Below, piece after piece: positions 24,915-41,485 of a stretch of DNA of 64,000 nt (its first letter is position 1; each line of letters begins with the position of its first letter). The position numbers and the translations under genes were made by a program. The notes under the pieces were generated by a model, which saw only the letters and a list, made by a program, of their open reading frames with translations, did no database searches and was not told the DNA's origin. The stretch lies in the NCBI GenBank assembly GCA_945869695.1, contig CAMBPV010000004.1:1-64000 (forward strand), given 5' to 3'. The stretch is from Prosthecobacter debontii (GTDB lineage: Bacteria; Verrucomicrobiota; Verrucomicrobiia; Verrucomicrobiales; Verrucomicrobiaceae).

Positions 24915-25343
24915 ATGAAGACCCGAATTCAGATCCTCGCCGTTGTCGCGCTTATCCTGCTCACGGTGGGCTGCGCCAGTGCCATCAAAGAGAAACAGAA
25001 CCTCGCCATCGCGGCCGGCTTCAAGGCCATCACGCCCGTGAAGCCCGAGCACATCGAGCTTCTGCCCAAGCTGCCGAAGGATACGATGAGCCAGATCAGC
25101 TACCAGGGGAAGACCTACTACGTTCTTCCGGACGTGGAGAACAATCAGGCATTCGTGGGGGGACCTGCGGAGTATCAGGCCTACCAGAAGCTGAGTCTTC
25201 AGAAGCAGATCAGTGATGCCAACTTGCAAGCGGCACAAATGAACCAGATGGCGGCCATGAACTCCATGAACTGGAGCGCCTGGGGTGGCTGGGGGTCCGT
25301 GGGACCCATGGGATATCCCTACCGATACGGCTACCGCAGGTAA
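24915..25343 (+). CDS. small lipoprotein, Gln/Met-rich
   Basis: 142 residues from the ATG at 24915; the ORF track lists a longer form from 24855. The signal ends in a lipobox (ALILLTVGCAS), so the protein is lipid-anchored. The mature part has a hydrophilic segment (FKAITPVKPEHIELLPKLPK), a short beta-like domain (QGKTYYVLPDVENNQAFVGG), a Gln/Ala/Met-rich helix (SDANLQAAQMNQMAAMNSMN) and a Trp/Gly/Tyr-rich tail. I do not recognise a named family. It heads the sulfatase and outer-membrane gene run, 39 bp before the lipase-like gene. Confidence 0.75.
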   Translation: MKTRIQILAVVALILLTVGCASAIKEKQNLAIAAGFKAITPVKPEHIELLPKLPKDTMSQISYQGKTYYVLPDVENNQAFVGGPAEYQAYQKLSLQKQISDANLQAAQMNQMAAMNSMNWSAWGGWGSVGPMGYPYRYGYRR

Positions 25344-25382
25344 CCTCCTCCTTTGAAGACTCACCTCCCGATCCTCCCTGCC

Positions 25383-27044
25383 ATGTTCTCCTACCCCCTC
25401 CGCACGCTGCCGGGCTTGCTGCTCGTTCTGACACTCGCTTTTTCTGGCTGCTCGCATTACTCCAAGGTCATCCAGAAGGGAACCTCTTACCGATCTTCTT
25501 CTGCTGCTGGGCAATTGATCGCACTGGCACAAAAACAATCAGCCAAACTGCCGCTGACCCAGATCGGACACTACCTGGATGCAGCCGCTTCAGCAGGAAC
25601 CGCACTCAAAGGAAACCCATCCGACAACCGAGCACGTGCAGACTATAACTTTGCCGTCGCGCGTGTGTTTGAGGTCATCAATGATGCGGGTTTGCAGCCT
25701 TGGAAAACGCCATTGCAATGCCCGGGTGCCAGTCAGACGTGGAATCTGTCCTTTCAAGCCGAGGCTCTCAAGAAGCTAAAGCTCGACCCGTCGATCTTCC
25801 AAATCCGACCCGCAGATCGTTTTGAGTTCAAAGGCAGACTCGTGGTCGATCATTGTGTGAAGGAGGGCATCGGCGCGCCGGTCATTGTCAACACGCGTGA
25901 CTTTGATATCACGACGCTGGACCCCTTTGCCCAAGGCAAGCATGCCTATTATGGGGCGACGGGTGTCGTGGAGTTCAACGGCAGCCAATGCACGGCGGCT
26001 CTGATTGATCCGCTCACGATCGAGACCGTCAGCCTCGCAGGCCAGAGCTATCCCCTCTCGGCTAATTTCACGGCCCCCATCGCCTTAGCGCTCGCGGAAT
26101 TGAAACCGAGGAAAAAAGAGCTGGGCGGCTTATTCAAGCCGGACCAATTTGCCACAGGACCGCGCCTCGCGCGATTGCAGCCCTACGATCCGAAGAAGAT
26201 CCCAATCCTCTGCATCCACGGTCTGGGCGACTCTCAGGCTACCTGGGCGCCCATGATCGAGACGCTCCGCGCGGATCCCGTCATCCGGCAGAACTATCAG
26301 GTTTGGTTTTTCAGTTACCCTTCGGGTTATCCTTATCCCTACTCGGCCTCGATCCTCCGCAAGCAAATGGATGCCATCAAAGCTCGCTGTCCTGGACACA
26401 AAGAGATCGTGCTTCTCGGTCACAGCATGGGTGGCATGATCAGCCGCACCCTCATGACCGACAGTGGCATGGCGCTCTGGGATGCGACCTACCCCAAGCC
26501 TCCCGCCCAAATGAACTTCACCGAGGAGACACGGCAGGTCATGTCCAATGCGCTGATCTTCAAACACCGCACCGACATCTCGCGAGTTATTTTTCTCTCT
26601 CCCTCTCATCGCGGTGCCAACATGGCCACGAGTTTCTTTGGCCGCATGGGTGCCAAGTTAATCGGCGGTCCCAAAAACATGGTGGATGATATCACCGACG
26701 TCCTCTCTCAGGCCAATCCCAGTTCCACGGGTCAGCAGTTGAAGAAAATGCCCAACAGCATCGATTTCCTCAATCCTGAAAACCGTTTTGTGAAGAACCT
26801 TGATAAGTTGCCTCTCGCGCCCGGCATCCCTTTCCATACCATCCTGGGAGATCGCGGCAAAGGGGGAAATCTCAGTCACACCCAGCCCGTGAGCAGTGAC
26901 GGCATCGTGCCTTATTGGAGCAGTCACCTCGACGGCGCACAAAGTGAAGTGATCATCCCCAGCGGTCATTGGACCAACCAACACCCGCAAGGAATCGCCG
27001 AAGTGAAGCGCATCCTCCATCTCCATTTGAAATCCAAACCCTAG
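25383..27044 (+). CDS. alpha/beta-hydrolase lipoprotein (lipase-like)
   Basis: 553 residues from the ATG at 25383; a TTG at 25353 would add ten. The signal peptide ends in a lipobox (LVLTLAFSGCSH). About 270 residues of unassigned N-terminal region precede an alpha/beta-hydrolase domain: oxyanion strand IPILCIHGLGDSQATW, nucleophile elbow VLLGHSMGGMISR, VIFLSPSHRGANMAT, and a late His in IPSGHWTNQHPQGIAE. This resembles PGAP1-like or triacylglycerol lipase-type esterases. The anchor suggests action in the periplasm or at the outer membrane on lipid or wax-like esters, next to DUF2092 (LolA-like) and barrel genes. Confidence 0.85.
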   Translation: MFSYPLRTLPGLLLVLTLAFSGCSHYSKVIQKGTSYRSSSAAGQLIALAQKQSAKLPLTQIGHYLDAAASAGTALKGNPSDNRARADYNFAVARVFEVINDAGLQPWKTPLQCPGASQTWNLSFQAEALKKLKLDPSIFQIRPADRFEFKGRLVVDHCVKEGIGAPVIVNTRDFDITTLDPFAQGKHAYYGATGVVEFNGSQCTAALIDPLTIETVSLAGQSYPLSANFTAPIALALAELKPRKKELGGLFKPDQFATGPRLARLQPYDPKKIPILCIHGLGDSQATWAPMIETLRADPVIRQNYQVWFFSYPSGYPYPYSASILRKQMDAIKARCPGHKEIVLLGHSMGGMISRTLMTDSGMALWDATYPKPPAQMNFTEETRQVMSNALIFKHRTDISRVIFLSPSHRGANMATSFFGRMGAKLIGGPKNMVDDITDVLSQANPSSTGQQLKKMPNSIDFLNPENRFVKNLDKLPLAPGIPFHTILGDRGKGGNLSHTQPVSSDGIVPYWSSHLDGAQSEVIIPSGHWTNQHPQGIAEVKRILHLHLKSKP

Positions 27045-27063
27045 ACCCACAACCCACCCCCTG

Positions 27064-27813
27064 ATGAAAAAGAAACTTCCGTTCTCACTTGTTCTCGCCC
27101 TCGCAGGCGCGGCCCTTCTGTCCTCCTGCTCCACCACACCGACGGCAAAACTTGATGCCAAAACAGACGCGGCCCTCACGGCCATGTGTGACAAGCTGGC
27201 GGCGGCCAAGACTCTCCGCGTCAGTGCCACGAGGCGCAATTCCCCTGGATTTCACGCCGGAGTGGATGTGTCGGAATCGGCCGAAGGGTCCGTCGTTGTC
27301 CGCCGTCCAGATCATCTCGCTGCTCAACTCAAGACCAACAAGGGCGCGAGAAAGATCGGATTTGATGGGAAGCAACTCACCATTGTGGACCTCGCAGCGG
27401 GCACCCACAGCACGGCAACGGCAGCGGGTGACATCGACCGCGCAGTCAGCGGCATCCAGTCCATCTACGGTGTGACGCCGCCCGTGGCAGAGCTCCTGGT
27501 GAACCGCCCGAAAGCCCATCTTTTGACGGGTGTGAAAACAGGCAAGCATGTCGGAACCGAGAGCATCGGCGGTGTGGTTTGTGATCACCTCGCGTTCGAG
27601 CAGGATGGTCTCAGCTGGCAGCTGTGGGTCGCCACGGGTGATAAGTTGCCCCGACGCATTTCCTTCGCTTACCCCAATGGCGAAGGCGGCGCTCCTCTAA
27701 CTGCCACGGCAACCCTCAGCCAATGGAAACTCGATGCCCCGGTTTCGGATGCTGAGCTCAGCGTCAAAGCCCCCTCAGGCAGCCGTGCGCTGGAAATGAT
27801 CACCCTTCCCTAA
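27064..27813 (+). CDS. DUF2092 lipoprotein, copy 1
   Basis: 249 residues with a lipobox (LAGAALLSSCSTT). The mature part matches DUF2092: a short helix (AALTAMCDKLAAAKTLRVSA), beta strands (SVVVRRPDHLAAQLKTNKGA, KIGFDGKQLTIVDL), YGVTPPVAELL, and CDHLAFEQDGLSWQLWV followed by DKLPRRISFAYP. The family is expected to adopt the LolA/LppX-like half-barrel that binds lipid acyl chains; that is general knowledge and not shown here. A second copy at 34478 shares AAKTLR, PPVAELL, FEQDG and DKLPRR. It starts 20 bp after the lipase-like gene, supporting a shared role. Confidence 0.85.
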   Translation: MKKKLPFSLVLALAGAALLSSCSTTPTAKLDAKTDAALTAMCDKLAAAKTLRVSATRRNSPGFHAGVDVSESAEGSVVVRRPDHLAAQLKTNKGARKIGFDGKQLTIVDLAAGTHSTATAAGDIDRAVSGIQSIYGVTPPVAELLVNRPKAHLLTGVKTGKHVGTESIGGVVCDHLAFEQDGLSWQLWVATGDKLPRRISFAYPNGEGGAPLTATATLSQWKLDAPVSDAELSVKAPSGSRALEMITLP

Positions 27814-27844
27814 TCCCCTCAATCCTCCCTCCACCTCGAACACC

Positions 27845-28234
27845 ATGAAAAAAATTCTCGTTCTCAGCCTCACTGCGTTGATGACTCTCAGTGAAGCGCT
27901 CCCCACTCTGTCCATCGCCCTCGTCACCGTTGCGGCTCTCACTCCTTCTGAATCCCAGGCTTTGCCCGTGGATCGGATGGCTGGCCGTCAAGGCGCACGC
28001 AATTCCCGCCAGGCGGGACGCCAGACTTCACGGGCCCGCCGTCGCGGTTGCTACGGTCTTCCCGGTGGAGCATTACCTTTTGCCTACGGTGGCTACCGCT
28101 ACTACCGCGTGGGTCCACGTTTCTACTACCCTTACATGTACATGGGCCGCACCGTTTACATCGACATTAACGTCAACGGAGGTTACCCCGCCCCGCCGCC
28201 ACCCATCGGCTCCATCGACATCGACATTTATTAA
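27845..28234 (+). CDS. small Tyr-rich secreted protein, copy 1
   Basis: 129 residues. The signal peptide is long (KKILVLSLTALMTLSEALPT, extending to SQALPVD). An Arg/Gly/Ser-rich linker (RQGARNSRQAGRQTSRARRR) precedes a compact Tyr/Pro/Gly-rich domain (CYGLPGGALPFAYGGYRYYR, then YYPYMYMGRTVYIDINVNGG). The protein at 35273 has the same ending type (YGLPGG...YYYPY...GQTVY). Both directly follow a DUF2092 gene and precede an outer-membrane barrel gene. The fold resembles small surface domains with Tyr-rich beta hairpins. Function unknown. Confidence 0.75.
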   Translation: MKKILVLSLTALMTLSEALPTLSIALVTVAALTPSESQALPVDRMAGRQGARNSRQAGRQTSRARRRGCYGLPGGALPFAYGGYRYYRVGPRFYYPYMYMGRTVYIDINVNGGYPAPPPPIGSIDIDIY

Positions 28235-28252
28235 GTCCAACCCAACCCACCC

Positions 28253-29026
28253 ATGAAAACACATAGCCTCCTCGCACTGCTCGCTCTCACCCTTGGTGCC
28301 CACGCCGGCACTCCTGCACCTACGCCCATGGTAACACCCGCTGCGCCCACCAACGATGGTTGGTGGTTCCGCGCGGCTCCCTACGGATGGGTGACTGCCA
28401 TTGATGGCAATGTCGGCATCGGTCCGCTGTCCGCACCCGTTGACATCAGCATGAGTGACACAATCGACTCGCTCGACATGGCCTACATGGGTCTGCTCGA
28501 GGCCGGATTCGGCAAGTGGTCCTTTGGCGTGGATGTCATCTATGGCAAAACGTCCCAAGACATCGGCGGCGGGGGTCGGATCTTTGACAGCTTCCGCTAC
28601 GAGCAAAAGCAATGGCTCATCACTCCAGCCGTGGCCTACCGCGCGGTGCAGACAGATAGCTATCACATGGATGTGTTCGTGGGTGCTCGCATCACCATCC
28701 TTGAGGCCGATCTCACGGGTCGTTTTGTGAGTGGCGGAGAGATCTCTGTTGGTCGCGATACCGATTGGATCGACCCGATCATCGGCATCCGCGGCCAGGC
28801 TGAGCTAAGTGACAAAGTGTTCTTCCGCTACAATGCCGACATCGGCGGTTTCGGTGCCAATTCAGACCTCGTGTGGCAAGCCTTCGCGGGTTTCGGCCTC
28901 CATGTGAACGAAGCGACTTCCGTCGCCCTCGGCTATCGCGGACTCGGCATCGATTACACCAGCGGAAACTTCTCCCTCGACACCGTGACTCACGGTCCGG
29001 TCATTGGACTTGAAGTTAGGTTTTAA
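28253..29026 (+). CDS. outer-membrane beta-barrel protein
   Basis: 257 residues with a signal peptide (SLLALLALTLGAHAGTPA). The mature part shows alternating hydrophobic residues typical of barrel strands and ends in Phe (VIGLEVRF), the usual signal for outer-membrane insertion. Key segments are WWFRAAPYGWVTAIDGNVGI, DWIDPIIGIRGQAELSDKVF and DIGGFGANSDLVWQAFAGFG. The last two recur almost word for word in the protein at 40094 (WVDPFVGMRAHYNLTDRLY, DVGGFGVSSDLVWQAYGALG), so the two are paralogs. Function unknown; a channel or lipid-facing barrel is likely. Confidence 0.85.
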   Translation: MKTHSLLALLALTLGAHAGTPAPTPMVTPAAPTNDGWWFRAAPYGWVTAIDGNVGIGPLSAPVDISMSDTIDSLDMAYMGLLEAGFGKWSFGVDVIYGKTSQDIGGGGRIFDSFRYEQKQWLITPAVAYRAVQTDSYHMDVFVGARITILEADLTGRFVSGGEISVGRDTDWIDPIIGIRGQAELSDKVFFRYNADIGGFGANSDLVWQAFAGFGLHVNEATSVALGYRGLGIDYTSGNFSLDTVTHGPVIGLEVRF

Positions 29027-29044
29027 TCTGATTCCCAGACTCCC

Positions 29045-29836
29045 GTGAAAAAACTCCCTCTCCAAGCCTGCGCCCTGCTGCTCTCGATCTCCGCCCAGGC
29101 GCAGGAGGCAGCGGCTGAGCCAGACCTGGCTCAGCAGTTGGCCAATCCCGTGGCCAGCCTGATCTCCGTGCCCTTTCAAGCGAACTGGGATTTCGGCATC
29201 GGCGTGAATGATGCCACCCGCTTCACCCTGAACATCCAGCCGGTCATCCCGCTGAGTTTAAATGAGGAGTGGAACCTGATCGTGCGCACCATTTTGCCAG
29301 TGATCGATGCCGAGTCCCCAGCTCCCGGCATCGATGACGCGAGCGGTCTCGGAGACACGGTGCAGAGCTTCTTCTTTTCACCGAAAAAACCCGTGGGCGG
29401 CTGGATCTTAGCGGCGGGACCGGTGGCCCTTTGGCCCACCGCAACGGACAGTCAGCTCGGCGGCGAACAATGGGGCGCAGGTCCCACGGCGCTGGCCTTA
29501 CGCCAGAAAGGTCCGTGGACTTTCGGTTTGCTAACCAATCACCTCTGGTCCTATGCCGGAGATACCGCGCGAGCCGAGGTGAACGCCACCTTCATTCAGC
29601 CCTTCGTCTCCTACATCACGAGCACCAAGACAACCTTCACCGTCAACTCAGAAACCACCTACGACTGGACTGGCCAGCAATGGAGTGTGCCGGTGAATCT
29701 CGTCATCTCACAGCTGTTCAAAGTGGGGAGTCAACCGATGCAGGCCTTCGTGGGTGGCCGCTACTACCTCGAAGGACCGGACGGCGGCCCCGAGTGGGGT
29801 TTGCGCGCGGGTCTTGTTTTGCTTTTCCCCAAATAG
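29045..29836 (+). CDS. putative outer-membrane transporter barrel
   Basis: 263 residues; GTG start 18 bp after the upstream stop. Signal peptide (LQACALLLSISAQAQEAA). The pattern 'FQPV.P...N.EWN.I.RT..P.' is present as FTLNIQPVIPLSLNEEWN and LIVRTILPVIDAESPA. GLGDTVQSFFFSPKKP and WGAGPTALALRQKGPWTFG are further hallmarks of a family often annotated simply as 'transporter' and known for a small beta-barrel with a large aqueous face. It ends in LLFPK and not Phe. Same-strand neighbours overlap little, so it belongs to the operon of barrels, porin and sulfatase. Confidence 0.8.
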   Translation: MKKLPLQACALLLSISAQAQEAAAEPDLAQQLANPVASLISVPFQANWDFGIGVNDATRFTLNIQPVIPLSLNEEWNLIVRTILPVIDAESPAPGIDDASGLGDTVQSFFFSPKKPVGGWILAAGPVALWPTATDSQLGGEQWGAGPTALALRQKGPWTFGLLTNHLWSYAGDTARAEVNATFIQPFVSYITSTKTTFTVNSETTYDWTGQQWSVPVNLVISQLFKVGSQPMQAFVGGRYYLEGPDGGPEWGLRAGLVLLFPK

Positions 29837-29854
29837 AATCGCTGATTTCTCCCG

Positions 29855-31126
29855 ATGAAATCGATCCTCATCGCCAGCACCTGTCTTGCGGTTGGTGTTC
29901 TGTGGGCAGGCTCCTCTCCGCCTGCCCCTTCAACGATAGCTGACGAGCCCTCATTAGACTTGGGTTTGACGGGCGACTGGGGAGGAACGCGTGCCCGCTT
30001 GGTAGAAAGCGGTCTCAGCATCGATCTCAATGGCATCTACAGCTACCAAGGCGTGGCCAGGGGTGGCTTAAACATCGGTAACGATTCAGGCAGCGTTTTT
30101 TCTGCCAATCTGAATCTCGCACTCGATACCGAGAAGGCGGGGCTCTGGAATGGGGGCACGCTTAAAGTCCGCCTCGAGGGCCGAGGGGGTGACAGTGTCC
30201 TCCGGGGTGCTGGTGCCACTTCTCCTGTGAACAATCAGGCCCTTTTCCCCCTCGTTGAAGGCAGCGGCGGCAGTGAAGTCTGGGCGCTGACAGAACTCGC
30301 CTTCGTGCAATTCATCACGGAGAAAATCGGCATCGTCGGTGGCCTGATTAACACCACCTACGGCGATAACAACCCGATCACAGGCGATGCCATTTCCACC
30401 CAACACTTCATGAACATGGGCTTTCTCTACTCGCCCGTGGAGGCGCACGCGGTGCCTGCCGTGACACTCGGCGGCGGAGTGGTCATCATCCCCACCGAGG
30501 GCCTTCAAGGAAGCTTCACCGTGGTGGGATCTGAGGAAACAGCGGGCAAGGATCCCTTCTCCCTGTATGAAGGCACCACCTTTGGCACCGAGTGGGAATT
30601 TGAATACCAAATAGGAGACAAGCCCAGCGGCATGGTCTTTGGAGGCCTCTACAGCATCAATCAGCCTCGAGCGCCTTTTGGAACCAATCCCCGCATCATC
30701 CTCGAGGAACTCGCTGCGGGTGAGGAGATCGAGACGAAGAAAGACAGTTGGGCCCTTTTTTGGAATGGCTACCAGTACCTCACCGGAGACGAGGAACGCG
30801 GCATGGGCATCTTTGCCCGAGCCGGTCTGTCGGATGGAAATCCCAATCCCGTCCGCGCACACGCCGCCCTTGGACTCGGTGGCGTCGGACTCCTGCGAGG
30901 TCGTGACGAGGATCGCTGGGGCATCGGCGCTTACTATCAGAAACTCGCAGACGGCGCGCTCACTGCGGCCCTCGGATTGGACGATGAGATCGGTGGCGAG
31001 TTTTTCTACAACATCGCACTCACCCGCTGGATGAATCTGACACTGAATGCCCAAGTCATCGATTCTGCGATCCCGCGGGCGGGCACCGTTGTGGTGCTCG
31101 GCACTCGAGTGGGCATTCGATTTTAA
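29855..31126 (+). CDS. OprB-type carbohydrate porin
   Basis: 423 residues, signal peptide (LIASTCLAVGVLWAGSSPPA). OprB hallmarks are GLTGDWGGTRARLVESGLSI followed by DLNGIYSYQGVARGG, strands ending in aromatic residues, KDSWALFWNGYQYLTG, GMGIFARAGLSDGNPNPV, and the C-terminal GTRVGIRF with terminal Phe. The family forms 16-stranded pores selective for sugars in other bacteria. Here it lies between two other barrel genes and a large sulfatase, so the solute may be a (de)sulfated carbohydrate; that is inference. Confidence 0.9.
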   Translation: MKSILIASTCLAVGVLWAGSSPPAPSTIADEPSLDLGLTGDWGGTRARLVESGLSIDLNGIYSYQGVARGGLNIGNDSGSVFSANLNLALDTEKAGLWNGGTLKVRLEGRGGDSVLRGAGATSPVNNQALFPLVEGSGGSEVWALTELAFVQFITEKIGIVGGLINTTYGDNNPITGDAISTQHFMNMGFLYSPVEAHAVPAVTLGGGVVIIPTEGLQGSFTVVGSEETAGKDPFSLYEGTTFGTEWEFEYQIGDKPSGMVFGGLYSINQPRAPFGTNPRIILEELAAGEEIETKKDSWALFWNGYQYLTGDEERGMGIFARAGLSDGNPNPVRAHAALGLGGVGLLRGRDEDRWGIGAYYQKLADGALTAALGLDDEIGGEFFYNIALTRWMNLTLNAQVIDSAIPRAGTVVVLGTRVGIRF

Positions 31127-31249: not shown

Positions 31250-33637
31250 ATGAAAACGAAAAATAGATTCGTCGGCGTCGCGCTAGGCGCAACACTTCTC
31301 GGCATCAGCATCCTCTCTCAGGCACAGCAGCCGGGTGCTAAGGGCGTCACATCCGTGGCACCCGAAACGAGCACGGTTCTTCCTTTCGAAGACTTCCGCC
31401 ATAAGGGCAACATCGGCCGAACCATCGCCGAGAGCGATCCTCCCCAGTTTCCGAAGCTGGTGCGTCCGCCGAAGGGCGCACCGAATATTGTGCTCATCCT
31501 GATCGACGACGCGGGTTACGGTCAGTTCGGCACTTTCGGCGGGCAGATCCCCACGCCCGCGCTCGACAGTGTGGCCAAGGAAGGCCTGCGCTTCACGCGT
31601 TATCACACCACGGCACTTTGCTCGCCCACGCGTGCAGCTTTGCTCACCGGCCGCAATCATCACTCAACCGGTAATGGGGTGATCACCGAAGCTGCGACGG
31701 GTTACGATGGCTACACGGGCATCATCGGCAAAAATGTGGGCACCATCGCCGAAGTGCTGCGTCAGCACGGTTACGCCACTTCTTGGTTCGGGAAAAATCA
31801 CAACACACCAGACTGGGAAACGAGTCAGGTGGGACCCTTCGACCGCTGGCCGAGCGGCTTGGGCTTTGACTATTTTTATGGGTTCATGGGCGGTGACGCC
31901 GATCAGTGGCAGCCGACGCTTTATGAGAACCACAATCTGGTTCCTCGCTCGAAGGACCCGAACTACATCCTGACAAAAGACCTCGTGGACAAGTCCATCG
32001 CGTGGTTGCGCGGCACCCGCTCCATTGACGCAGAAAAGCCTTACTTCCTCTACATGGCCACGGGTGCCACTCACGCTCCGCATCATGTGCGGCCTGAATT
32101 CATCGCGAAATACAAGGGCAAGTTCGACATGGGGTGGGATGCGTATCGCGAGCAGACCTTTGAGCGGCAGAAGAAGCTCGGCGTCGTGCCCCCGGACACA
32201 AAGCTCACCCCGCGTCCGAAAGAACTTCCCGCATGGGACTCTCTGTCGGCGGATCAGAAGAAGCTCTTCGCCCGCATGATGGAAGTCTTCGCTGCTTTCA
32301 CGGATGAGACGGACTATGAAATGGGTCGCATGCTCGATGTCGTCCGCTCGCTCCCAGACGCAGACAATACCCTGATCCTCTATCAAGTGGGTGACAACGG
32401 CGCCTCCGCCGAGGGCGGTCTGGTGGGTCTTTTGAATGAGAACTCTTTCTTCAACGGCGTGCCAGAGAAGCTGGAAGACAACCTCAAGGCCATGGAAGAG
32501 CTCGGTGGACCGAAGCACTTCAATCACTTCCCCGCAGGCTGGGCCCATGCGATGAATACCCCCTTCCAATGGACCAAGCAGATCGCCTCCCACCTCGGCG
32601 GTGTGCGCAATCCGCTCGCCATCTCCTGGCCCGCCCGGATCAAGGACAAGGGCGGCGTGCGCTCGCAGTTCCATCACGTCATCGACATCGCGCCCACCAT
32701 CTACGAAGCCTGCGGAATCACCTTCCCGACGATGCTCAATGGTGTGGCCCAAAAGCCGATCGAAGGTGTGTCGATGGTCTACAGCTTTGAAGACGCAAAA
32801 GCACCGGGACGTCGCCGCAGCCAATACTTTGAAATGATGGTCAATCGCGCCATCTACAGTGACGGATGGTGGGCCGCCTCGCGGACCGGTGTCCCGTGGG
32901 AAAGCAGCCCCAAGCCTGCGGATCCAGACACCGCCACATGGGAGCTTTATAACCTCGATGAGGACTTCAGCCAAGCGAACGATCTGGCGGCGGTCAACCC
33001 CCTCAAACTCCGCCAGCTACAGGATGAATGGTGGGCAGCTGCAGCCAAATACAACGTCCTTCCCTTGGACGGCCGCAAGACGGAACGCTTGAGTTCTGAG
33101 CTTCAAGGACGCCCATCACTGGCTGGCAACCGCACCTCGTTCACCTACTATCCCGGCACACTCGGCCTCGCCGCAGGCAGCGCGCCTAAGATCCTGAATA
33201 AGTCATTCTCCATCTCCGCAGAGATCGAAATGACAGCGGACTCAAGCAATGGAGCCATCCTCTCATTTGGCGGCTCCGACGGCGGCTACGGTCTCTACAT
33301 CAAGGATGGCAAAGCGGTCTTCGTCGGTAACTTCCTCAGTCGTTCGGTCGCCCGTGCAACTTCCTCCGCGAAGATTCCGGCGGGGCCCGCGAAACTGCGT
33401 GGCGAGTTCACCTACGACGGCGGTGGCCTTGGAAAAGGTGGAAAGCTAGTCATCTTCGTGAATGACAAAAAGGCCGGCGAAAGCCGACTGGAACAGACGC
33501 AAGCTTTCACATTGGGCTTGGGCGGCACCCTGGATGTGGGCGAGGACAGCGGCACTGCCGTGGACGAGGCCTACGAGCCACCCTTCAAATTCGGCGGCAC
33601 CATCAAGCAAGTGACCATCGATCTGAAGCCAAACTGA
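31250..33637 (+). CDS. large secreted arylsulfatase, copy 1
   Basis: 795 residues with a signal peptide (GVALGATLLGISILSQAQQP). The sulfatase core is clear: APNIVLILIDDAGYGQFGTF (metal Asp pair), formylglycine site ALCSPTRAALLTGRNHHSTG (Cys near 124, CxPxR), TSWFGKNHNTPDW, YQVGDNGASAEG. A C-terminal domain from about 640 has a lectin-like (concanavalin/LamG type) pattern (FSISAEIEMTADSSNGAILS, GLYIKDGKAVFVGNFL). The protein at 36777 has the same layout and many identical blocks, so the two are paralogs from duplication. The lectin-like tail may hold the enzyme on a polymer or glycan. Periplasmic or surface location. Confidence 0.93.
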   Translation: MKTKNRFVGVALGATLLGISILSQAQQPGAKGVTSVAPETSTVLPFEDFRHKGNIGRTIAESDPPQFPKLVRPPKGAPNIVLILIDDAGYGQFGTFGGQIPTPALDSVAKEGLRFTRYHTTALCSPTRAALLTGRNHHSTGNGVITEAATGYDGYTGIIGKNVGTIAEVLRQHGYATSWFGKNHNTPDWETSQVGPFDRWPSGLGFDYFYGFMGGDADQWQPTLYENHNLVPRSKDPNYILTKDLVDKSIAWLRGTRSIDAEKPYFLYMATGATHAPHHVRPEFIAKYKGKFDMGWDAYREQTFERQKKLGVVPPDTKLTPRPKELPAWDSLSADQKKLFARMMEVFAAFTDETDYEMGRMLDVVRSLPDADNTLILYQVGDNGASAEGGLVGLLNENSFFNGVPEKLEDNLKAMEELGGPKHFNHFPAGWAHAMNTPFQWTKQIASHLGGVRNPLAISWPARIKDKGGVRSQFHHVIDIAPTIYEACGITFPTMLNGVAQKPIEGVSMVYSFEDAKAPGRRRSQYFEMMVNRAIYSDGWWAASRTGVPWESSPKPADPDTATWELYNLDEDFSQANDLAAVNPLKLRQLQDEWWAAAAKYNVLPLDGRKTERLSSELQGRPSLAGNRTSFTYYPGTLGLAAGSAPKILNKSFSISAEIEMTADSSNGAILSFGGSDGGYGLYIKDGKAVFVGNFLSRSVARATSSAKIPAGPAKLRGEFTYDGGGLGKGGKLVIFVNDKKAGESRLEQTQAFTLGLGGTLDVGEDSGTAVDEAYEPPFKFGGTIKQVTIDLKPN

Positions 33638-33662
33638 AGAACGTCAACCAACTGACTCATCG

Positions 33663-33697
33663 GGTCGCATCTGTTTCTATCAGGTGCGGCCTTTTTT
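33663..33697 (+). terminator. rho-independent terminator
   Basis: An 11-bp stem (GGTCGCATCTG with CAGGTGCGGCC, including G-T pairs), loop TTTCTAT, then six T, 25 bp after the sulfatase stop. It ends the first half of the locus. Confidence 0.85.
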
Positions 33698-33702
33698 GTA
33701 GC

Positions 33703-34449
33703 ATGAATTCCTCCGTCACAACTGCCATTATTCTGGCCTGCCTCATCGCAGCCACCTGGTTCGGGAAGCGCATCCAACGTCACCTGCCAGAGCCACACTT
33801 CAGTGCCGACACCAAAGATACGGTGAAGCTGGCCATGGGACTGGTCGCGACGATGGCCGCTCTCCTGCTCAGCTTGCTCGTGAGTTCGGCAAAGGACTCC
33901 TATGACACGGTTCGAAATGAAATCATTCAACTGGCATCCAAGGTGATCTTTCTTGACCGGGTTCTCCATCTCTACGGCGAAGAGACAGAGCCTCTGCGGA
34001 AAGGGTTCCGAACCGAGTTGGGAAATTCCTTTCCTGCGATTTGGTCACACGCTCACGGGGAAGTCAAACCAGAGATCCAGAACGGAGATGGTTTGTATCT
34101 TGGCATTCAAAAACTCACGCCAACCAATGACCTCCAGCGTGCGATGAAGGATCAGGCCTTGGACATTGCCCTTGAGCTTGGGCAATTGCGGACCCTGCTG
34201 CACTCCCAGGCCATGTCTTCCATTTCCATTCCCCTTTTGACGGTGTTGGTGTGCTGGCTCGTGATTATCTTTTTGAGCTTCAGCATCTTTGCCCCGCCAA
34301 ACAGGACTGCCAGCATCGCTTTGGTGGTATCCTCAATCTCCGTCGCAGGGGCTATGTTTCTGATACTCGAAATGGACCGCCCCTTCACCGGTCTGGTCCA
34401 CATCTCCCCTGAGCCCATCGTCAATGCACTGAATCAAATCGGAAAATAG
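33703..34449 (+). CDS. DUF4239 membrane protein, copy 2
   Basis: 248 residues, second DUF4239 gene. It has an N-terminal helix (VTTAIILACLIAATWFGKRI), a second (GLVATMAALLLSLLVSSAKD), a central helical segment (VRNEIIQLASKVIFLDRVLH) and two C-terminal helices (LLTVLVCWLVIIFLSFSIF, ALVVSSISVAGAMFLILEMD), then RPFTGLVHISPEP, the family-like ending. It shares layout, not sequence detail, with the protein at 21611. As there, it follows a sulfatase and a strong terminator and leads into another gene set. Function unknown. Confidence 0.85.
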   Translation: MNSSVTTAIILACLIAATWFGKRIQRHLPEPHFSADTKDTVKLAMGLVATMAALLLSLLVSSAKDSYDTVRNEIIQLASKVIFLDRVLHLYGEETEPLRKGFRTELGNSFPAIWSHAHGEVKPEIQNGDGLYLGIQKLTPTNDLQRAMKDQALDIALELGQLRTLLHSQAMSSISIPLLTVLVCWLVIIFLSFSIFAPPNRTASIALVVSSISVAGAMFLILEMDRPFTGLVHISPEPIVNALNQIGK

Positions 34450-34477: not shown

Positions 34478-35233
34478 ATGAAAACAACATCCCGTTCCTT
34501 GATCTGTAAATCTGCTCCCCTTTTCGCCCTCTACCTGACGGCGGGACTGCTGCACGTTGGCTCCGCGCTCGCCGAGATTGAGCCTGCTGCCAAAACTCTG
34601 ACCCAAGCCGTCGCCACCAAATTAGCTGCCGCCAAAACCCTGAGGCTCACAGCCAAGCACGCACTTGACCCATCGCTAGGCGTCGGTGCGCGACTGGAAA
34701 AAGGCCCGCTTCAGATGACCGTGAAGCGTCCGAATCAGTTCTACGTCCTTCAGCAAGCCGGCGAAGAAACACGCGAGATCGCTTATGATGGCAAGACCTT
34801 TTGCATCATGCACCCGCAACTTAAACACCACGCCTGCGCACCTCTCAAGGCGACTTCCATTGAGCAAGTCGCTGACCTGATCGATCAGCGTTTTGGTTTC
34901 CGCCCGCCGGTGGCGGAGCTTCTGGCTGAAGACATGGCCTCCCAGATGTTTCTGCATGTTACTTCTGCCCGCATCACCGGCACGGAGTGGGTTGGCTGGA
35001 CTCGATGCCAAAAGATACACTTCGAGCAGGATGGGATGACCGCCGATCTCTGGGTCGGCCTGAAGGACAAACTTCCACGCCGTTACCTCCTCACCTTCAC
35101 CCGCATGAAGGGTCACCCAACTTGGGACATCCGACTTTCCAAATGGGAGCTCAATGCAGCAGTGAATGAAAAACTCTTCTCAAAAAAACCAGCCGCCGAT
35201 TCTAGCGCGATCCCCATGCTCAAAAGCCGCTAA
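34478..35233 (+). CDS. DUF2092 protein, copy 2
   Basis: 251 residues with an ordinary signal peptide (LFALYLTAGLLHVGSALAEI) and no lipobox, unlike copy 1. The family layout is kept: AVATKLAAAKTLRLTAKHAL, MTVKRPNQFYVLQQAGEETR, IAYDGKTFCIMHPQLKHH, FGFRPPVAELLAED, KIHFEQDGMTADLWVGLKDK followed by LPRRYLLTF. Soluble and lipid-anchored versions of one fold within 8 kb recall the LolA/LolB arrangement, in which a soluble carrier delivers to an anchored acceptor; this analogy is my inference. The small Tyr-rich protein gene follows after 39 bp. Confidence 0.85.
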   Translation: MKTTSRSLICKSAPLFALYLTAGLLHVGSALAEIEPAAKTLTQAVATKLAAAKTLRLTAKHALDPSLGVGARLEKGPLQMTVKRPNQFYVLQQAGEETREIAYDGKTFCIMHPQLKHHACAPLKATSIEQVADLIDQRFGFRPPVAELLAEDMASQMFLHVTSARITGTEWVGWTRCQKIHFEQDGMTADLWVGLKDKLPRRYLLTFTRMKGHPTWDIRLSKWELNAAVNEKLFSKKPAADSSAIPMLKSR

Positions 35234-35272
35234 TCCTTTTTCAACCTCACGTTTCATTTCCCTTTCTGAATC

Positions 35273-35704
35273 ATGAAAACAAATTCACTTCTCACTCTCG
35301 TCCTCGCCGCCTCCTCGCTGCTCATGACCCTCACGCCGGACTCGCTGGCTGCCCCACGCCATCGCCCGGCAAATCCACGCGGAGCACTCGATCCCCGGGG
35401 GCCTCTTGATCCACGCGGTCCCCTCGATCCACGTGGACCTCTTGACCCTCGCGGCCCGCTCGATCCACGCGGCCCGCTCGATCCACGCGGCCCCTTCGAT
35501 CCTCGGGGTCCCTTTGATCCACGCAATCCACACCGCTACATGTACGGTCTGCCAGGAGGCTACGTCGTCCGCCCCTTCCGTGGTGTGAATTTCTACTTCT
35601 GCAGCGGCACTTACTATTACCCGTATTACATCAACGGTCAGACGGTTTACACGATCTGCGTCATCTCCAATGGCGTCCCTGTCGTGCCCGCGCGCCCCTA
35701 TTGA
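35273..35704 (+). CDS. small Tyr-rich secreted protein with DPRGPL repeats, copy 2
   Basis: 143 residues. Signal peptide (SLLTLVLAASSLLMTLTPDS). Residues 39-86 are eight copies of a six-residue unit (LDPRGP, the last two FDPRGP and FDPRNP). The C-terminal domain (YMYGLPGGYVVRPFRGVNFY, YYYPYYINGQTVY) matches that of the protein at 27845, which has an Arg/Gly-rich linker in place of the repeat. The repeat is Pro-rich and charged, so it likely forms an extended spacer that lifts the Tyr-rich domain from the membrane or crosses the periplasm. The stop codon region overlaps the first codon of the next ORF. Confidence 0.75.
   Translation: MKTNSLLTLVLAASSLLMTLTPDSLAAPRHRPANPRGALDPRGPLDPRGPLDPRGPLDPRGPLDPRGPLDPRGPFDPRGPFDPRNPHRYMYGLPGGYVVRPFRGVNFYFCSGTYYYPYYINGQTVYTICVISNGVPVVPARPY
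35387..35530 (+). repeat. 18-bp tandem repeat encoding DPRGPL
   Basis: Eight in-frame 18-bp units of the type CTCGATCCACGCGGCCCG. Units differ at synonymous positions (CGC/CGT/CGG/CGG-GGG), so selection has kept the peptide while the DNA diverged. Copy number may vary between strains. Confidence 0.85.
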
Positions 35705-36546
35705 GAAAGTCCCAACTTCGCAGAACCGTGAAGTCTCGCGCTCAAGCTCCACCTGATAGGAAACGGCACACCGCACTCCGTCTTGGGATGCTTGGATTCA
35801 TGTTGATTCCTCTCTCGCGGGCCGATACCCCGAGAGAGGATGCCCACATCTCACTCCGCTACCCAGGTCGTGCGTGGTTGCAGCCCTATGATCCCACCCT
35901 TCTGAGCCGGCGGATACTCACGGAGTATGAGTACGAGGAAAAAGCAGATGGCGACTCCAGTGAAAAATGGCTCTGGAACGTCCGTGGTGCCTTGCGAGTG
36001 AGCGAGGATATCACCTTCGGTGCCCAATTGGAAGTGCCGTGGCGGTGGGTGGATACGAACGAGGGTGATGACGCAGGCTGGGGAGACCTGGAGACCCGAC
36101 TCGGATTCGCAGGTCACCTCACGGATTCCACCCGTTGGGGTCTCGGTATGAATTTAAAATTCCCCACGGCCTCCGAACTCCTCGGAGACGGAGTCTTTGA
36201 ACTGCGCCCCTTGGCCTCGATGCGATGGAGCTTGACCGACCGAATTCAAATTGGAACCAGCTTCGAGTACAGTTTCACCCCCCGTGACGAGGGCACCCAA
36301 GATGTCTCATCCTTGGAGATCAGACTTCCCCTCACTCTGAAGCTTGGCGAAAAACTCTCTGCTTTCACCAGCTACAAGCCTCGATGGAATTTCGCCCATG
36401 ACACCGACCGCCACCGCTTGGAGTTTGGCCTCACCCGCCTGCTGGGTGCTCACAAAGAATATGCCCTTTCACTCGGCGCTGAGATTCCGCTCACTGACGA
36501 GTCCCTAGCCTGGAAAGGCTCTCTAGGCTTCACTTGGTTTTTCTGA
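35701..36546 (+). CDS. putative outer-membrane barrel protein
   Basis: 281 codons from a TTG overlapping the upstream stop; an ATG at 35788 would give a shorter and more usual signal peptide (MLGFMLIPLSRADTPRED), and I think it the likelier start. The mature part reads as a beta-barrel: RRILTEYEYEEKADGDSSEK, ITFGAQLEVPWRWVDTNEGD, GDLETRLGFAGHLTDSTRWG, LGMNLKFPTASELLGDGVFE, and the C-terminal GSLGFTWFF with terminal Phe. The type resembles MetA-pathway-of-phenol-degradation or other transport-associated barrels. It is the fourth predicted barrel in the locus and closes the second DUF2092 - Tyr-rich - barrel set. Confidence 0.75.
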   Translation: MRKSQLRRTVKSRAQAPPDRKRHTALRLGMLGFMLIPLSRADTPREDAHISLRYPGRAWLQPYDPTLLSRRILTEYEYEEKADGDSSEKWLWNVRGALRVSEDITFGAQLEVPWRWVDTNEGDDAGWGDLETRLGFAGHLTDSTRWGLGMNLKFPTASELLGDGVFELRPLASMRWSLTDRIQIGTSFEYSFTPRDEGTQDVSSLEIRLPLTLKLGEKLSAFTSYKPRWNFAHDTDRHRLEFGLTRLLGAHKEYALSLGAEIPLTDESLAWKGSLGFTWFF

Positions 36547-36776: not shown

Positions 36777-39185
36777 ATGAAACTGAAATATGGACACCTC
36801 GTTCTAGCATTCGGCCTTGCGCTCAGTGCCTCAGGAAAGGACAGACTGGATCGCACCTCACTGCCCATCCCGGAGCCGGACCACCCTCGCAGCACGGTGC
36901 TCGACGCCCGCGACGCCAAGGCTCCACCGCGCTTCGAGGTCAAGGCTCCGGCAGGTGCGCCGAACGTGCTCATCGTGCTTGTTGACGACATGGGCTTCGG
37001 CATGCCCAGCGCCTTCGGTGGCCCCGTGCGGATGCCCTCGGCAGACCGCCTTGCCAGCCAGGGACTGCGCTACAATCACTTTCACACCACCGCGCTGTGC
37101 TCGCCCACGCGGGTATCCCTGCTCTCTGGACGCAATCACCACATGAACAACATGGGCAGCATCACCGAGACGGCCACGGGGTTCCCAGGCAATACGGGGC
37201 AGCGCCCAAACAGCGTCGCGCCCCTCGCCGAAATGCTGCGCCTGAATGGTTACAGCACCTCCTTCTTCGGCAAAAACCACGAGACGGCACCCTGGGAGGT
37301 CAGCGTCTCCGGCCCGACCGACCGCTGGCCGACGCGCTCGGGCTTCGACAAGTTTTACGGCTTCTTCGGTGGCGAGACCGACCAGTGGAACCCCACCATC
37401 TACGACGGCATGGCGCGCATCCCCACGCCACATCGCCCTGGTTATAACTTCATGACCGACATGGCCGACCAGGCCATCTCGTGGATGAAATTCCAAAAGT
37501 CGCTCACGCCGGACAAGCCCTTCTTTATGTACTTTGCACCCGGAGCCACCCACGCACCGCATCATGTGCCTGCCGAATGGATCGCCAAAAACAAGGGCCG
37601 CTTCGATGGCGGCTGGGACAAGCTGCGCAATGAGACGCTCGCCCGCCAAATCGCCCTCGGGGTCGTGCCGGAAGGCACCAAGCTCGCCAATAAACCCGAT
37701 GGCATCAAAGACTGGGACACACTGAGCCCTGACGAAAAGAAACTCTTTTCCCGCCAAATGGAGGTTTACTCAGCCTTCGGTGAATTCGCAGACGACGAGA
37801 TCGGCCGCCTCTTTGACGCCGTTGGCGAGATTGGCCAGCTCGATAACACACTCATTTTTTACATCATGGGTGACAACGGCACCAGCGCTGAGGGCGGCAT
37901 GAACGGCATGTTCAGCGAGATGACCTACTTCAACAATGTGCAGGAGTCCGTGCAAGACATGCTCAAACACTACGACGAGTGGGGCGGACCGACGACCTAT
38001 CCACACATGGCCGCAGGCTGGGCCGTCGCGGGTGACACGCCCTTCATGTGGACCAAGCAAATGCCCTCAAACTACGGTGGCACGCGCAATGGCATGATCG
38101 TCTCCTGGCCAAAAGGCATCAAATCCACCCATCAAGTGCGCACCCAGTGGCACCACGTCATCGACGTCGCACCCACCGTGCTCGAAGCCGCCAGCCTGCC
38201 CGAGCCCAAGAGCGTCAACGGCATCGTCCAGTCACCCATCGAGGGCGTCAGCATGGTTTACAGCTTCAACAAGCCCGAGGCCAAAAGCACCCACAAGACC
38301 CAGTATTTCGAAATCTTCGGCAACCGCGCCATCTATCACGACGGCTGGTTCGCCGGCACTGTCCACCGTGCCCCCTGGGAGAAAACGCCGCGTCGAAAAT
38401 TGGCCGAGGACATCTGGGAGCTCTACGATACGACGAAAGATTTCAGCCTCACTAATAACCTCGCCGCCGAAAATCCAGCCAAGCTCAAGGAACTGCAGGC
38501 CATCTTCATGAGAGACGCCAGCAAGTATCGCGCGCTGCCCATCGATGACCGCCTGATGGAACGCATGGTCGCGTCATCAGCGGGAAGACCTGATTTGATG
38601 GGCGAGCGCACCTCGCTCACACTCGGAGCAGGCATGGACTCCATGAGCGAAAACGTCTTCATCAACATCAAAAACCGCTCCCTCTCGATCACCGCCGATG
38701 TAGACATCCCCGAAGGCGGCGCAAATGGCGTGATCCTTGCGCAGGGCGGACGTTTCGGCGGCTGGAGCCTGTATCTCAAAGACGGCAAGCCCACCTATTG
38801 CTACAACTTTGTAGGCTTGCAGGAATACAAAGTTGCCGCTCCCACCGCGCTGGCTACGGGGAAGACTACCGTCCGCATGAACTTTGACTACGACGGCGGT
38901 GGCATTGGCAAAGGCGGCCTGGCCACTCTGCTGGTCAACGGCGAGAAAGTCGCCAGTGGCCGGATCGAACAAACACAACTCGGCATCTTCTCAGCAGACG
39001 AGACCGCGGCTGCGGGCGTGGATGACGCAACGCCCGTCACAGCAGACTACAAGGAGCGTGACAACGCTTTCACAGGTAAGCTCATCCAAGTCACCGTGGA
39101 CGTGAAGCCCGTCGGAGCCGCCGTCAAAGCAGAGGCGGAAGAAGCCAAGAAGGAGTCCGATGTGAAAAAGGCGTTGTCCAACTAG
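36777..39185 (+). CDS. large secreted arylsulfatase, copy 2
   Basis: 802 residues. Signal peptide (HLVLAFGLALSASGKDRL). The sulfatase core is present: APNVLIVLVDDMGFGMPSAF, formylglycine site ALCSPTRVSLLSGRNHHMNN (Cys near 108), TSFFGKNHETAPW, FYIMGDNGTSAEGGM. The C-terminal lectin-like domain corresponds to that of copy 1 (LSITADVDIPEGGANGVILA, FDYDGGGIGKGG). It ends in a lysine/glutamate-rich tail (AEAEEAKKESDVKKALSN) missing in copy 1. Conserved blocks along the full length show common descent. The preceding 230 bp carry no gene. It likely acts on a related but different sulfated substrate. Confidence 0.93.
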   Translation: MKLKYGHLVLAFGLALSASGKDRLDRTSLPIPEPDHPRSTVLDARDAKAPPRFEVKAPAGAPNVLIVLVDDMGFGMPSAFGGPVRMPSADRLASQGLRYNHFHTTALCSPTRVSLLSGRNHHMNNMGSITETATGFPGNTGQRPNSVAPLAEMLRLNGYSTSFFGKNHETAPWEVSVSGPTDRWPTRSGFDKFYGFFGGETDQWNPTIYDGMARIPTPHRPGYNFMTDMADQAISWMKFQKSLTPDKPFFMYFAPGATHAPHHVPAEWIAKNKGRFDGGWDKLRNETLARQIALGVVPEGTKLANKPDGIKDWDTLSPDEKKLFSRQMEVYSAFGEFADDEIGRLFDAVGEIGQLDNTLIFYIMGDNGTSAEGGMNGMFSEMTYFNNVQESVQDMLKHYDEWGGPTTYPHMAAGWAVAGDTPFMWTKQMPSNYGGTRNGMIVSWPKGIKSTHQVRTQWHHVIDVAPTVLEAASLPEPKSVNGIVQSPIEGVSMVYSFNKPEAKSTHKTQYFEIFGNRAIYHDGWFAGTVHRAPWEKTPRRKLAEDIWELYDTTKDFSLTNNLAAENPAKLKELQAIFMRDASKYRALPIDDRLMERMVASSAGRPDLMGERTSLTLGAGMDSMSENVFINIKNRSLSITADVDIPEGGANGVILAQGGRFGGWSLYLKDGKPTYCYNFVGLQEYKVAAPTALATGKTTVRMNFDYDGGGIGKGGLATLLVNGEKVASGRIEQTQLGIFSADETAAAGVDDATPVTADYKERDNAFTGKLIQVTVDVKPVGAAVKAEAEEAKKESDVKKALSN

Positions 39186-39246
39186 TCATTCTAGACCACT
39201 CGGTTCATCTCCCCCGAATCGGTCAGCAACCGAAACCCCTCCTCCC

Positions 39247-40059
39247 TTGAAAAACAAACTCCTCTGCCCATCCGCTCTCGGCCTGCTCCTGCTCGCCTCG
39301 TCCATCGGATGCTCATCCAAACCCGTCTCGGATCTCAAATTCCGCGCCGATCGAAAAGAACGCCTCGCCCAAGGTTGTATCTTCTACTTCGACGGAGCCG
39401 GTGGCGGCACAACCAAGGCGAACTACGCGGACGGCGTCATCAAAGGAATGCTGGATGCCGGCTATCGCGGTGCGGGTGAAATCGTCTCGTGGGAGACCGG
39501 CAAGGGACTCATCAAGGATCAAGATGCCAGCGTCGAGTACAAGCGCTCCAAGGCCAAGGAAGGAGCCGCCAGCATTCAGCGCTACCAGAAAGACTACCCC
39601 GGTGCTCCGCTGGGTCTGCTCGGTTTCTCCGCAGGCACCGCCGAGGCCATCTTCGCGCTTGAGGAGCTATCGGTCAACGCGCCAGTGGATCGGGTTGTCT
39701 TGCTGGGCACGTCCATCAGCCGTGACTACGACCTGACCGAGGCGCTCAAGCGGGTGAAGGGTAAACTCTACATCATCACCTCCACCCACGACCACATGGT
39801 CGGGACAATGATGAAGTTCTCGGGCACCGCCGACCGGAAGCGTCACGACCCCGGCGCAGGCATCAAAGGATTTATTCTTCCTGCCGGAGCCACCGAAGAG
39901 ACCAAGAAGCTCTACGCCGAAAAAATCGTCACCATCCCCTACAGCAAGGACTTCAGGAAGGACGGAGACAAAGACCATCACTTTGACAACGTGAAGGAAG
40001 ACTTCATCCGCGACCACGTGGCACCGCTGCTCATGGGTCAGCCGGGCTCCTCATTGTAA
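39247..40059 (+). CDS. alpha/beta-hydrolase-like lipoprotein
   Basis: 270 residues; TTG start (no ATG gives a signal). Lipobox in LLLLASSIGCSSK. The core suggests an alpha/beta hydrolase: GCIFYFDGAGGGTTKANYAD, GEIVSWETGKGLIKDQ, a nucleophile elbow LGLLGFSAGTAEAIF (GxSxG), VDRVVLLGTSISRDYDL, a possible acid in YIITSTHDHMVG and a late His in KDHHFDNVKEDF. The substrate is unknown. It lies between the second large sulfatase and the coiled-coil barrel and is the second lipase-like lipoprotein in the locus. Confidence 0.75.
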   Translation: MKNKLLCPSALGLLLLASSIGCSSKPVSDLKFRADRKERLAQGCIFYFDGAGGGTTKANYADGVIKGMLDAGYRGAGEIVSWETGKGLIKDQDASVEYKRSKAKEGAASIQRYQKDYPGAPLGLLGFSAGTAEAIFALEELSVNAPVDRVVLLGTSISRDYDLTEALKRVKGKLYIITSTHDHMVGTMMKFSGTADRKRHDPGAGIKGFILPAGATEETKKLYAEKIVTIPYSKDFRKDGDKDHHFDNVKEDFIRDHVAPLLMGQPGSSL

Positions 40060-40093
40060 AACTCATCCTCCCAGTCTTTATTTCGCCTCTCCC

Positions 40094-41485
40094 ATGACCT
40101 CATCCATCGCCAAACATCTCGTCTGCCAGCTCGCCCTTGCTACGGCCCTGCTTGCAGGAACGCCGGCTCCCAAAGCCCCACCGACTGTTGCGATCTCACC
40201 CACGATTGATCCGTGGGAGATCACCCTGAGTCCCTACGGCTGGATGGCAGGATTGGAGGGCACCACCGGTGTGCGCGGATTCACCGCAGAGACGGATGTC
40301 CCGCTCAAAGACATCCTCAGAAATCTCGACATGATCGCGATGCTCAATATCGAGGCCAGAAAAGGCCGCTGGGGTGGGTGGGTTGATGGACTCTACCTCA
40401 AGATGTCCATGGACGCTCAGACCCCCGGCCCTCTTCTCGACTCCGTCGGTTTGAGCGTCGAGCAGATCGTTGCCGAGGCTGCCCTCTTCTACCGCGTCTG
40501 GGAGAGTGATCGCGGATTCCTCGACCTCTATGCCGGTGCTCGCTACATGTCCGTCGGCGGAGAGCTCAGTCTCCATGTCAGTGACTCCGGCGTCGAGCAA
40601 CTCTCCCGCAGGTTGAGTGATGCCGTCGTGAACCGCGTGGTCGATGAAATCTCCAGCATCGCCAGCTCCAAAGCCGCCAGTGCCAAAGGCTCCCTCACAA
40701 GCCAGATCACCCATCTCGTTTCAGATCGTCTTGCCGAGGCCACCTCCCGCGCCACATCCGTCAGAAATCAAGCCACCGAGGGCAGGAGTGAGATCGCAGC
40801 CCAGGTCGCAGCCAAAGGCGCGGAGGTCCGAGACCTTGTTGGAAATCTGCAAGACATCGCCGCCTCCCACCCGAAGCTCGTCGAGGTCATCCGCAACAGT
40901 GAACGCATCCAGGCCGCCCTGCGCAACGCCGTCAGAACAGGCCTCGAGCAACGCGCTCTCGAGGCACAACTCGAGCAAAAAGTCACCGCCGCGCAGCAGG
41001 ACATCGCCACGCTTCAAAACGCTACCGCCACCGTCCGCAGTCGGATCGAACAAGCCCGCACCGCTTTGGCCGCCGCCCGCGCCGAGCTTGATGCCGCACG
41101 CTCCAGCGCCCGCAGCCGCGCCAAAAGTGCCGTCGAGAAAGCCAATAAAAAACTCGCCTCCGCCATCGAGTCCGCTTTGCACGAAGCCATCCCCGATCAA
41201 CTCTCCCAAACCGCCGGTTGGGTGGACCCCTTCGTCGGCATGCGTGCCCACTACAATCTGACCGACCGCCTCTACGCCGTCGCCAAGGCCGACGTCGGCG
41301 GCTTCGGCGTCAGCAGCGACCTCGTCTGGCAGGCCTACGGTGCCCTCGGTTACCACCTCAGCAAAAGCGGCAAGACCACCGTCGAGCTCGGCTACAAATA
41401 CATGGCCGTGGACTACGCCAAAGGCGGCTTCACCTACGACGTCGCCATGAGCGGCGTGATGTTAAACATCGGCTTCCGGTTCTAA
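40094..41485 (+). CDS. outer-membrane barrel with long coiled-coil insert
   Basis: 463 residues. Signal peptide (VCQLALATALLAGTPAPK). Residues about 40-165 and 375-463 form a beta-barrel like that at 28253 (WEITLSPYGWMAGLEGTTGV, FLDLYAGARYMSVGGELSLH; WVDPFVGMRAHYNLTDRLYA, DVGGFGVSSDLVWQAYGALG; terminal FRF). Between them sit some 200 residues of Ala/Arg/Glu/Gln-rich helix with heptad-like spacing (LVSDRLAEATSRATSVRNQA, QQDIATLQNATATVRSRIEQ). The paralog lacks this insert. A helix of that length could stretch far into the periplasm, or outward, as a tether or channel. The gene closes the locus. Function unknown. Confidence 0.8.
   Translation: MTSSIAKHLVCQLALATALLAGTPAPKAPPTVAISPTIDPWEITLSPYGWMAGLEGTTGVRGFTAETDVPLKDILRNLDMIAMLNIEARKGRWGGWVDGLYLKMSMDAQTPGPLLDSVGLSVEQIVAEAALFYRVWESDRGFLDLYAGARYMSVGGELSLHVSDSGVEQLSRRLSDAVVNRVVDEISSIASSKAASAKGSLTSQITHLVSDRLAEATSRATSVRNQATEGRSEIAAQVAAKGAEVRDLVGNLQDIAASHPKLVEVIRNSERIQAALRNAVRTGLEQRALEAQLEQKVTAAQQDIATLQNATATVRSRIEQARTALAAARAELDAARSSARSRAKSAVEKANKKLASAIESALHEAIPDQLSQTAGWVDPFVGMRAHYNLTDRLYAVAKADVGGFGVSSDLVWQAYGALGYHLSKSGKTTVELGYKYMAVDYAKGGFTYDVAMSGVMLNIGFRF

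Follow-up and report, generated by a model that had tools for sequence, protein, structure and literature searches.

A recurrent DUF2092 and tyrosine-rich protein gene pair in what appear to be two adjoining sulfatase cassettes of Prosthecobacter debontii

The closest working precedent for the mechanism proposed here is the pairing of a DUF1302 outer-membrane barrel with a DUF1329 periplasmic protein of LolA fold. In the excerpts covered here of reports on two such pairs, PP_0765/PP_0766 of Pseudomonas putida and AmeA/AmeB of Castellaniella (PMC10866462, PMC6394551), barrel and LolA-fold protein are co-encoded and tied to growth on hydrophobic compounds, with a DUF1302/DUF1329 pair essential for Tween 20 metabolism (PMC10866462) and the DUF1329 protein AmeB required for growth on monoterpenes (PMC6394551). 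The locus we describe shares this combination of parts but draws on other Pfam families; as far as those excerpts extend, an inner-membrane efflux transporter is associated with the known pairs, which are described with neither a Tyr-rich DUF6515-type partner nor sulfatases, and Pfam scans of our locus (24915–41485) gave no DUF1302 or DUF1329 match. LolA and LolB offer a second comparison, since DUF2092 has their predicted fold and occurs here in one soluble and one anchored copy; however, DUF2092 is not PF03548, the genome has a LolA candidate of its own elsewhere, and the two DUF2092 types are not an obligate pair. Mycobacterial LppX, LprG and LprF, which hold lipids rather than lipoproteins, likewise have a LolA-like fold matched by one of our DUF2092 proteins (Foldseek), but belong to another phylum and have other partners.

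The window analyzed, 64,000 nucleotides of one contig, comes from a draft genome of 4.92 Mb in 333 contigs. Between 24915 and 41485 all genes lie on the + strand with intergenic gaps of −4 to 230 nt, and ORF and Pfam searches recovered every gene named in the first-pass annotation, with positions and families as it had given them. What we call cassette a opens with a small Tyr/Met-rich lipoprotein (24915–25343; lipobox TVGCAS, no Pfam match) and continues with an alpha/beta hydrolase lipoprotein (25353–27044; PF12697, E = 1e-11; PGAP1, 1e-5; lipobox FSGC, GHSMG motif), a DUF2092 lipoprotein of type a (27064–27813; PF09865, 1e-44; lipobox LLSSC), the Tyr-rich secreted protein a (27845–28234; signal peptide, Arg-rich linker, Tyr-rich beta core), outer-membrane barrels A (28253–29026) and B (29045–29836), and a porin of the carbohydrate porin family OprB (29855–31126; PF04966, 2e-29), as annotated. 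It ends with a 795-aa PAS-like (S1_4-type) FGly sulfatase (31250–33637; PF00884, 3e-59; motif CSPTR). A terminator-like hairpin follows (33662–33692, + strand; 12 pairs, then TTTTTG, from a pattern scan). Cassette b then comprises a Bestrophin-like/DUF4239 membrane protein (33703–34449; PF14023, 2e-29), a soluble periplasmic DUF2092 protein of type b and LolA fold (34478–35233; PF09865, 9e-34), the Tyr-rich secreted protein b (35273–35704; no Pfam match), barrel C (35701–36546, with the true start probably internal to this ORF), an 802-aa PAS-like FGly sulfatase (36777–39185; PF00884, 4e-56; motif CSPTR), an alpha/beta-hydrolase-like lipoprotein (39247–40059) and barrel D (40094–41485). Both lipoproteins with hydrolase features had been called lipase-like; Pfam places 25353 among the alpha/beta hydrolases, and the case for 39247 comes from its lipobox (SIGC) and GFSAG motif, with no Pfam match. 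Signal peptides, strand patterns and mutual similarity agree with the annotation of four barrels beside the porin, with weak Pfam matches at best (Phenol_MetA_deg at 3e-4, below cut-off, for barrel C).

Read by the first-pass annotation as a single system, these 16 kb look instead like two cassettes side by side, and comparative gene order is stronger evidence for this than the hairpin. The cassette b order of sulfatase, 39247-type hydrolase, Bestrophin-like protein, DUF2092b, Tyr-rich protein b, barrel C and barrel D is found at three loci (L057, L093 and L094), where the DUF4239 gene is syntenic. The cassette a order of DUF2092a, Tyr-rich protein a and an A-type barrel, often with a hydrolase or sulfatase, occurs in G390, G401, G395 and G430. 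Because the cassettes recur separately, and in G066, G390 and G401 types a and b of DUF2092 are carried by separate contigs, the window appears to combine two independent units. The hairpin has the longest stem in the terminator scan and separates the first large sulfatase from the Bestrophin-like gene; since terminator-like sites overall are no more frequent than in shuffles, we use it as supporting evidence only. Recent tandem duplication was rejected, as the paralogues are only 32–47% identical (DUF2092 pair 32%, Tyr cores 37%, barrels 28253/40094 34–40%, sulfatases 47%) and the cassettes stand apart in other genomes. Family labels from one HMM neighborhood scan mix paralogues (a with b, large with small sulfatases), and typing was taken from other comparisons.

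The DUF2092 proteins score far above the curated PF09865 cut-off of 21.2 bits (152.8 bits for 27064, 117.1 for 34478), and hmmscan gave this family as their sole match, with none to PF03548 (LolA proper). An AF2 model of DUF2092b (mean pLDDT 85) has LolA as its best PDB match in Foldseek (E = 3.4e-9, probability 1.00), followed by RseB, LprG, LppX and LprF. The predicted fold is a LolA-type open barrel with a helical lid, in agreement with the annotation and with an earlier assignment from sequence (PMC4520260). One anchored and one soluble copy had also been correctly recognized: the lipobox at 27064 is replaced at 34478 by an ordinary signal peptide without one. Lipobox-bearing relatives of type a are present in G066, G390, G401, G395, G403 and G430, and a search of genome contigs for type b returned 11 loci, all within the phylum and mostly in Verrucomicrobiaceae or Verrucomicrobiales MAGs. 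The suggested relay from soluble to anchored DUF2092 is not supported by this comparison. Six relatives have one type alone (b in G394, G426, G235 and G428; a in G403 and G430), and together with the separate contigs noted above this led us to reject an obligate relay of the LolA–LolB kind.

DUF2092 is far more tightly associated with the Tyr-rich gene. In a survey of the order Verrucomicrobiales (38 rows representing 36 genes, two being listed twice through split ORFs or fetch edges), a Tyr-core gene lies directly downstream on the same strand in 33/36 distinct DUF2092 genes, a count for which the Tyr-core model includes some of the sequences counted. We therefore ran an independent test with a model trained only on Verrucomicrobiota sequences from this order, searching 6043 ORFs at 31 further DUF2092 loci. 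Of these loci, 18 come from named cyanobacterial and proteobacterial plasmid records and 13 from Verrucomicrobiota of other groups. Each of the 13 top matches (E up to 0.013) was the ORF that immediately follows DUF2092. Ten of the 13 Verrucomicrobiota loci lack the partner, and several of their DUF2092 matches sit in long ORFs of other kinds. Among 388 genomes of the phylum, DUF2092 occurs in 7/16 with a Tyr match vs 25/372 without (P = 9e-5). Gene order is also similar at a distance: DUF2092, DUF6515 and arylsulfatase in Gloeothece; AraC, symporter, barrel, DUF2092, DUF6515 and sulfatase in Leptolyngbya; and arylsulfatase, DUF2092, small protein and arylsulfatase in Rhizobium binae. Such conservation in other genomes shows that the arrangement exceeds chance. 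The core pair recurs in cyanobacteria and proteobacteria and very probably represents a genuine envelope unit not described before, and the case for the repeated DUF2092, Tyr-rich and barrel unit is stronger than first claimed. We found no description of the pairing in the literature searched, which lay mostly outside subscription journals and yielded for DUF2092 only the fold-assignment paper and one passing mention, for DUF6515 one unrelated paper, and no paper joining DUF4239 with a sulfatase or arylsulfatase with DUF1254 and operon.

The Tyr-rich proteins themselves appear to be remote, minimal relatives of DUF6515. Neither 27845 nor 35273 matches any Pfam family, including DUF6515 (PF20125), which is matched by 2/17 members of the Tyr-rich family; profile comparison of the Tyr core with DUF6515-type proteins gave 94.2% (hhalign, E = 1.2e-7, over 41 columns). 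Position points the same way: PF20125-positive proteins occupy the place of the Tyr-rich gene in L066, L122 and L126, a multi-unit DUF6515-type protein does so in L066 and L079 (3e-28 for L066), and in Gloeothece and Leptolyngbya the gene immediately following DUF2092 is annotated DUF6515. Some relatives of protein a have an Arg-rich RRTxRR linker common to rhizobial and cyanobacterial proteins, and protein b has 7 DPRG pentapeptide repeats (3–14 in relatives). Protein a is modeled with a small beta core (residues 70–120, pLDDT about 90 or more), for which fold searches gave no significant match, only scattered SH3b-like ones with E above 1.

Both large sulfatases have an intact C-x-P-x-R motif and are, judged by sequence, FGly sulfatases of the S1 family, PAS-like (S1_4-type). 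Their closest solved relatives are 7all and the Pseudomonas aeruginosa arylsulfatase PAS/AtsA (1hdh), to which 31250–33637 aligns at the DD, R, K, H, H, DN and K catalytic positions; unlike it, they have a signal peptide and are extended at the C terminus by about 200 residues. This tail had been described as lectin-like, which a weak Laminin_G_3 match suggests for the first sulfatase (E = 0.011), with no tail match in the second. Since the genome contains 76 PF00884 matches and many FGE-type genes, a nearby sulfatase says little by itself; we discounted plain co-location and tested linkage on the long (~800-aa) PAS-like class only, which is rarer than PF00884 sulfatases at large. Of 28 long sulfatases, 20 are found no more than 10 kb from DUF2092 (0.25 expected), 19 of these on the same strand, and DUF2092 is present in 12/15 genomes with the class vs 9/42 others (P = 1e-4). 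Beyond the phylum, long sulfatases flank DUF2092 on both sides in R. binae and one lies 1.8 kb away in Gloeothece; the class is also found without DUF2092. The co-occurrence of DUF2092 with the Tyr-rich gene and with large sulfatases that the first-pass annotation proposed to look for is thus found in other genomes, and its reading overall is partly supported.

We tentatively favor a mechanism in which DUF2092, with its LolA fold, and the Tyr-rich protein paired with it would handle an amphiphilic ligand behind the barrel while sulfatases and lipoprotein hydrolases trim it. From gene content, core pairing, sulfatase linkage, predicted fold and sulfatase motif we infer the following steps. An outer-membrane barrel would admit an amphiphilic, often sulfate-esterified compound, whose hydrophobic part the DUF2092 cavity would hold in the periplasm, lipid-anchored at a membrane in type a and free in type b. 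As a partner dedicated to DUF2092, the Tyr-rich protein would dock it or provide the place of hand-over at the barrel or cell wall. Sulfate would be removed by the sulfatase, and acyl or ester groups by the hydrolase. Each cassette would work alone, with one of each type in the window; the periplasmic route for a lipid or glycan suggested by the annotation is itself putative. This mechanism is favored by the core pairing, the sulfatase linkage and the LolA/LppX/LprG/RseB fold of DUF2092, by similar gene content in Gloeothece, Leptolyngbya and R. binae, by the DUF1302/DUF1329 precedent, and by the lack of glycan-degradation genes in the scans described below. Given the OprB porin, and since S1_4 includes the glycan (mucin) sulfatase BT4683 (PMC10154612), a sulfated glycan is a possible substrate.

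The main rival follows from the adjacency of DUF2092 and the Tyr-rich gene, which is tighter than that with sulfatases or barrels and persists at several pairs with neither in the stretch covered. DUF2092 could then be a chaperone or carrier that brings the Tyr-rich protein to the outer membrane or surface, the barrels and sulfatases being merely frequent neighbors. We consider this rather unlikely: the Tyr-rich proteins 27845 and 35273 carry ordinary signal peptides, lack a lipobox and are therefore not LolA-type lipoprotein clients, and the sulfatase linkage is too strong for chance. Unlikely too, and with less in its favor, is a sulfated-polysaccharide utilization locus of the type typical of Verrucomicrobia. 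The abundant sulfatases of that group are taken as a sign of polysaccharide degradation (PMC5615132), and the many PF00884 matches, the porin and the one weak lectin-like tail would suit such a locus; but Pfam scans of 24915–41485 gave no GH, PL, SusC/D or TonB receptor, and the sulfatases are PAS-like and not close to carrageenan or GAG enzymes. That DUF2092 is an RseB/MucB-like sensor of envelope lipids instead of a carrier is highly improbable, for although RseB and MucB are among its fold matches, the same scans found no anti-sigma or sigma factor in either cassette, and the closest regulator observed, an AraC-type gene, lies upstream at 17833.

Extending the favored ligand-handling mechanism beyond this locus is more speculative. 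DUF2092 and DUF6515-type Tyr-rich proteins may form a widespread, unrecognized envelope system of two proteins, a LolA-fold carrier and a Tyr-rich partner dedicated to docking it. Such a system might repeatedly have recruited barrels and large sulfatases to import sulfated amphiphiles. The pairing unites two families of unknown function in at least three phyla, and so provides a testable pair; the DUF2092 linkage also offers a way in, through genomics, to the natural substrate of ~800-aa PAS-like sulfatases, which are very common.

Barrels A and D belong to one family, of which D and its orthologues align with a long helical, low-complexity, coiled-coil-like insert between the barrel halves that A does not have. 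Relatives of barrel A adjoin DUF2092 in Verrucomicrobiales, Rhizobium K102 and Leptolyngbya, and in the latter two A/D-family members precede DUF2092 by 62 and 202 bp; relatives of barrel B lie near DUF2092 in L104, Rhizobium CC1099, Agrobacterium and Thiodictyon, and barrel C is syntenic in L057, L093 and L094. An anti-phage defense system was rejected, the PADLOC matches being only weak coiled-coil ones within the barrel D insert. This insert, the hairpin at 33662–33692 and the DPRG repeats of 35273 are absent from the first-pass annotation. Relatives of hydrolase 25353 recur near DUF2092 loci, and the hydrolase-like 39247 is 73–83% conserved in L055 and L057. Finally, a homologue of the small lipoprotein at 24915 adjoins a Zn-peptidase gene in L062 and L066, so this first gene of cassette a may belong with the genes upstream.

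Upstream of the two cassettes, a sulfatase gene followed by a gene for a HAD-family protein occupies 18866-21570 of the window, and an AraC-type regulator (17833-18810, − strand) lies divergent from the gene at 18866. The same sulfatase and HAD-family pair is carried by Sinorhizobium meliloti pSymA (31% and 66% identity, respectively), and the HAD-family protein shows 73-81% conservation among relatives. Records of Ruegeria, Flammeovirga, and Leptolyngbya likewise have AraC-family genes in the vicinity of DUF2092 or of large sulfatases. Genomes G397 and G390 (loci L053 and L049-L050) have 3-4 long sulfatases close together, adjoining DUF2092 of a third type (c). Another Bestrophin-like/DUF4239 gene is present at 21611-22396, outside the main locus, and shares 21% identity with that at 33703.

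Within the cassettes, the Tyr-rich secreted protein at 35273-35704 and its relatives contain DPRG pentapeptide-type repeats, whose copy number ranges from 3 to 14 among relatives and which are also spanned by an open antisense frame. The halves of the outer-membrane barrel at 40094-41485 are separated by a long coiled-coil-like insert, found at the same position in several orthologues.

Downstream, an RHS-repeat protein (43226-44899) lacks a long N-terminus and is possibly a fragment. A neutral-ceramidase-like protein (48723-50162, PF04734) is encoded on the far side of a transposase gene at 47206.
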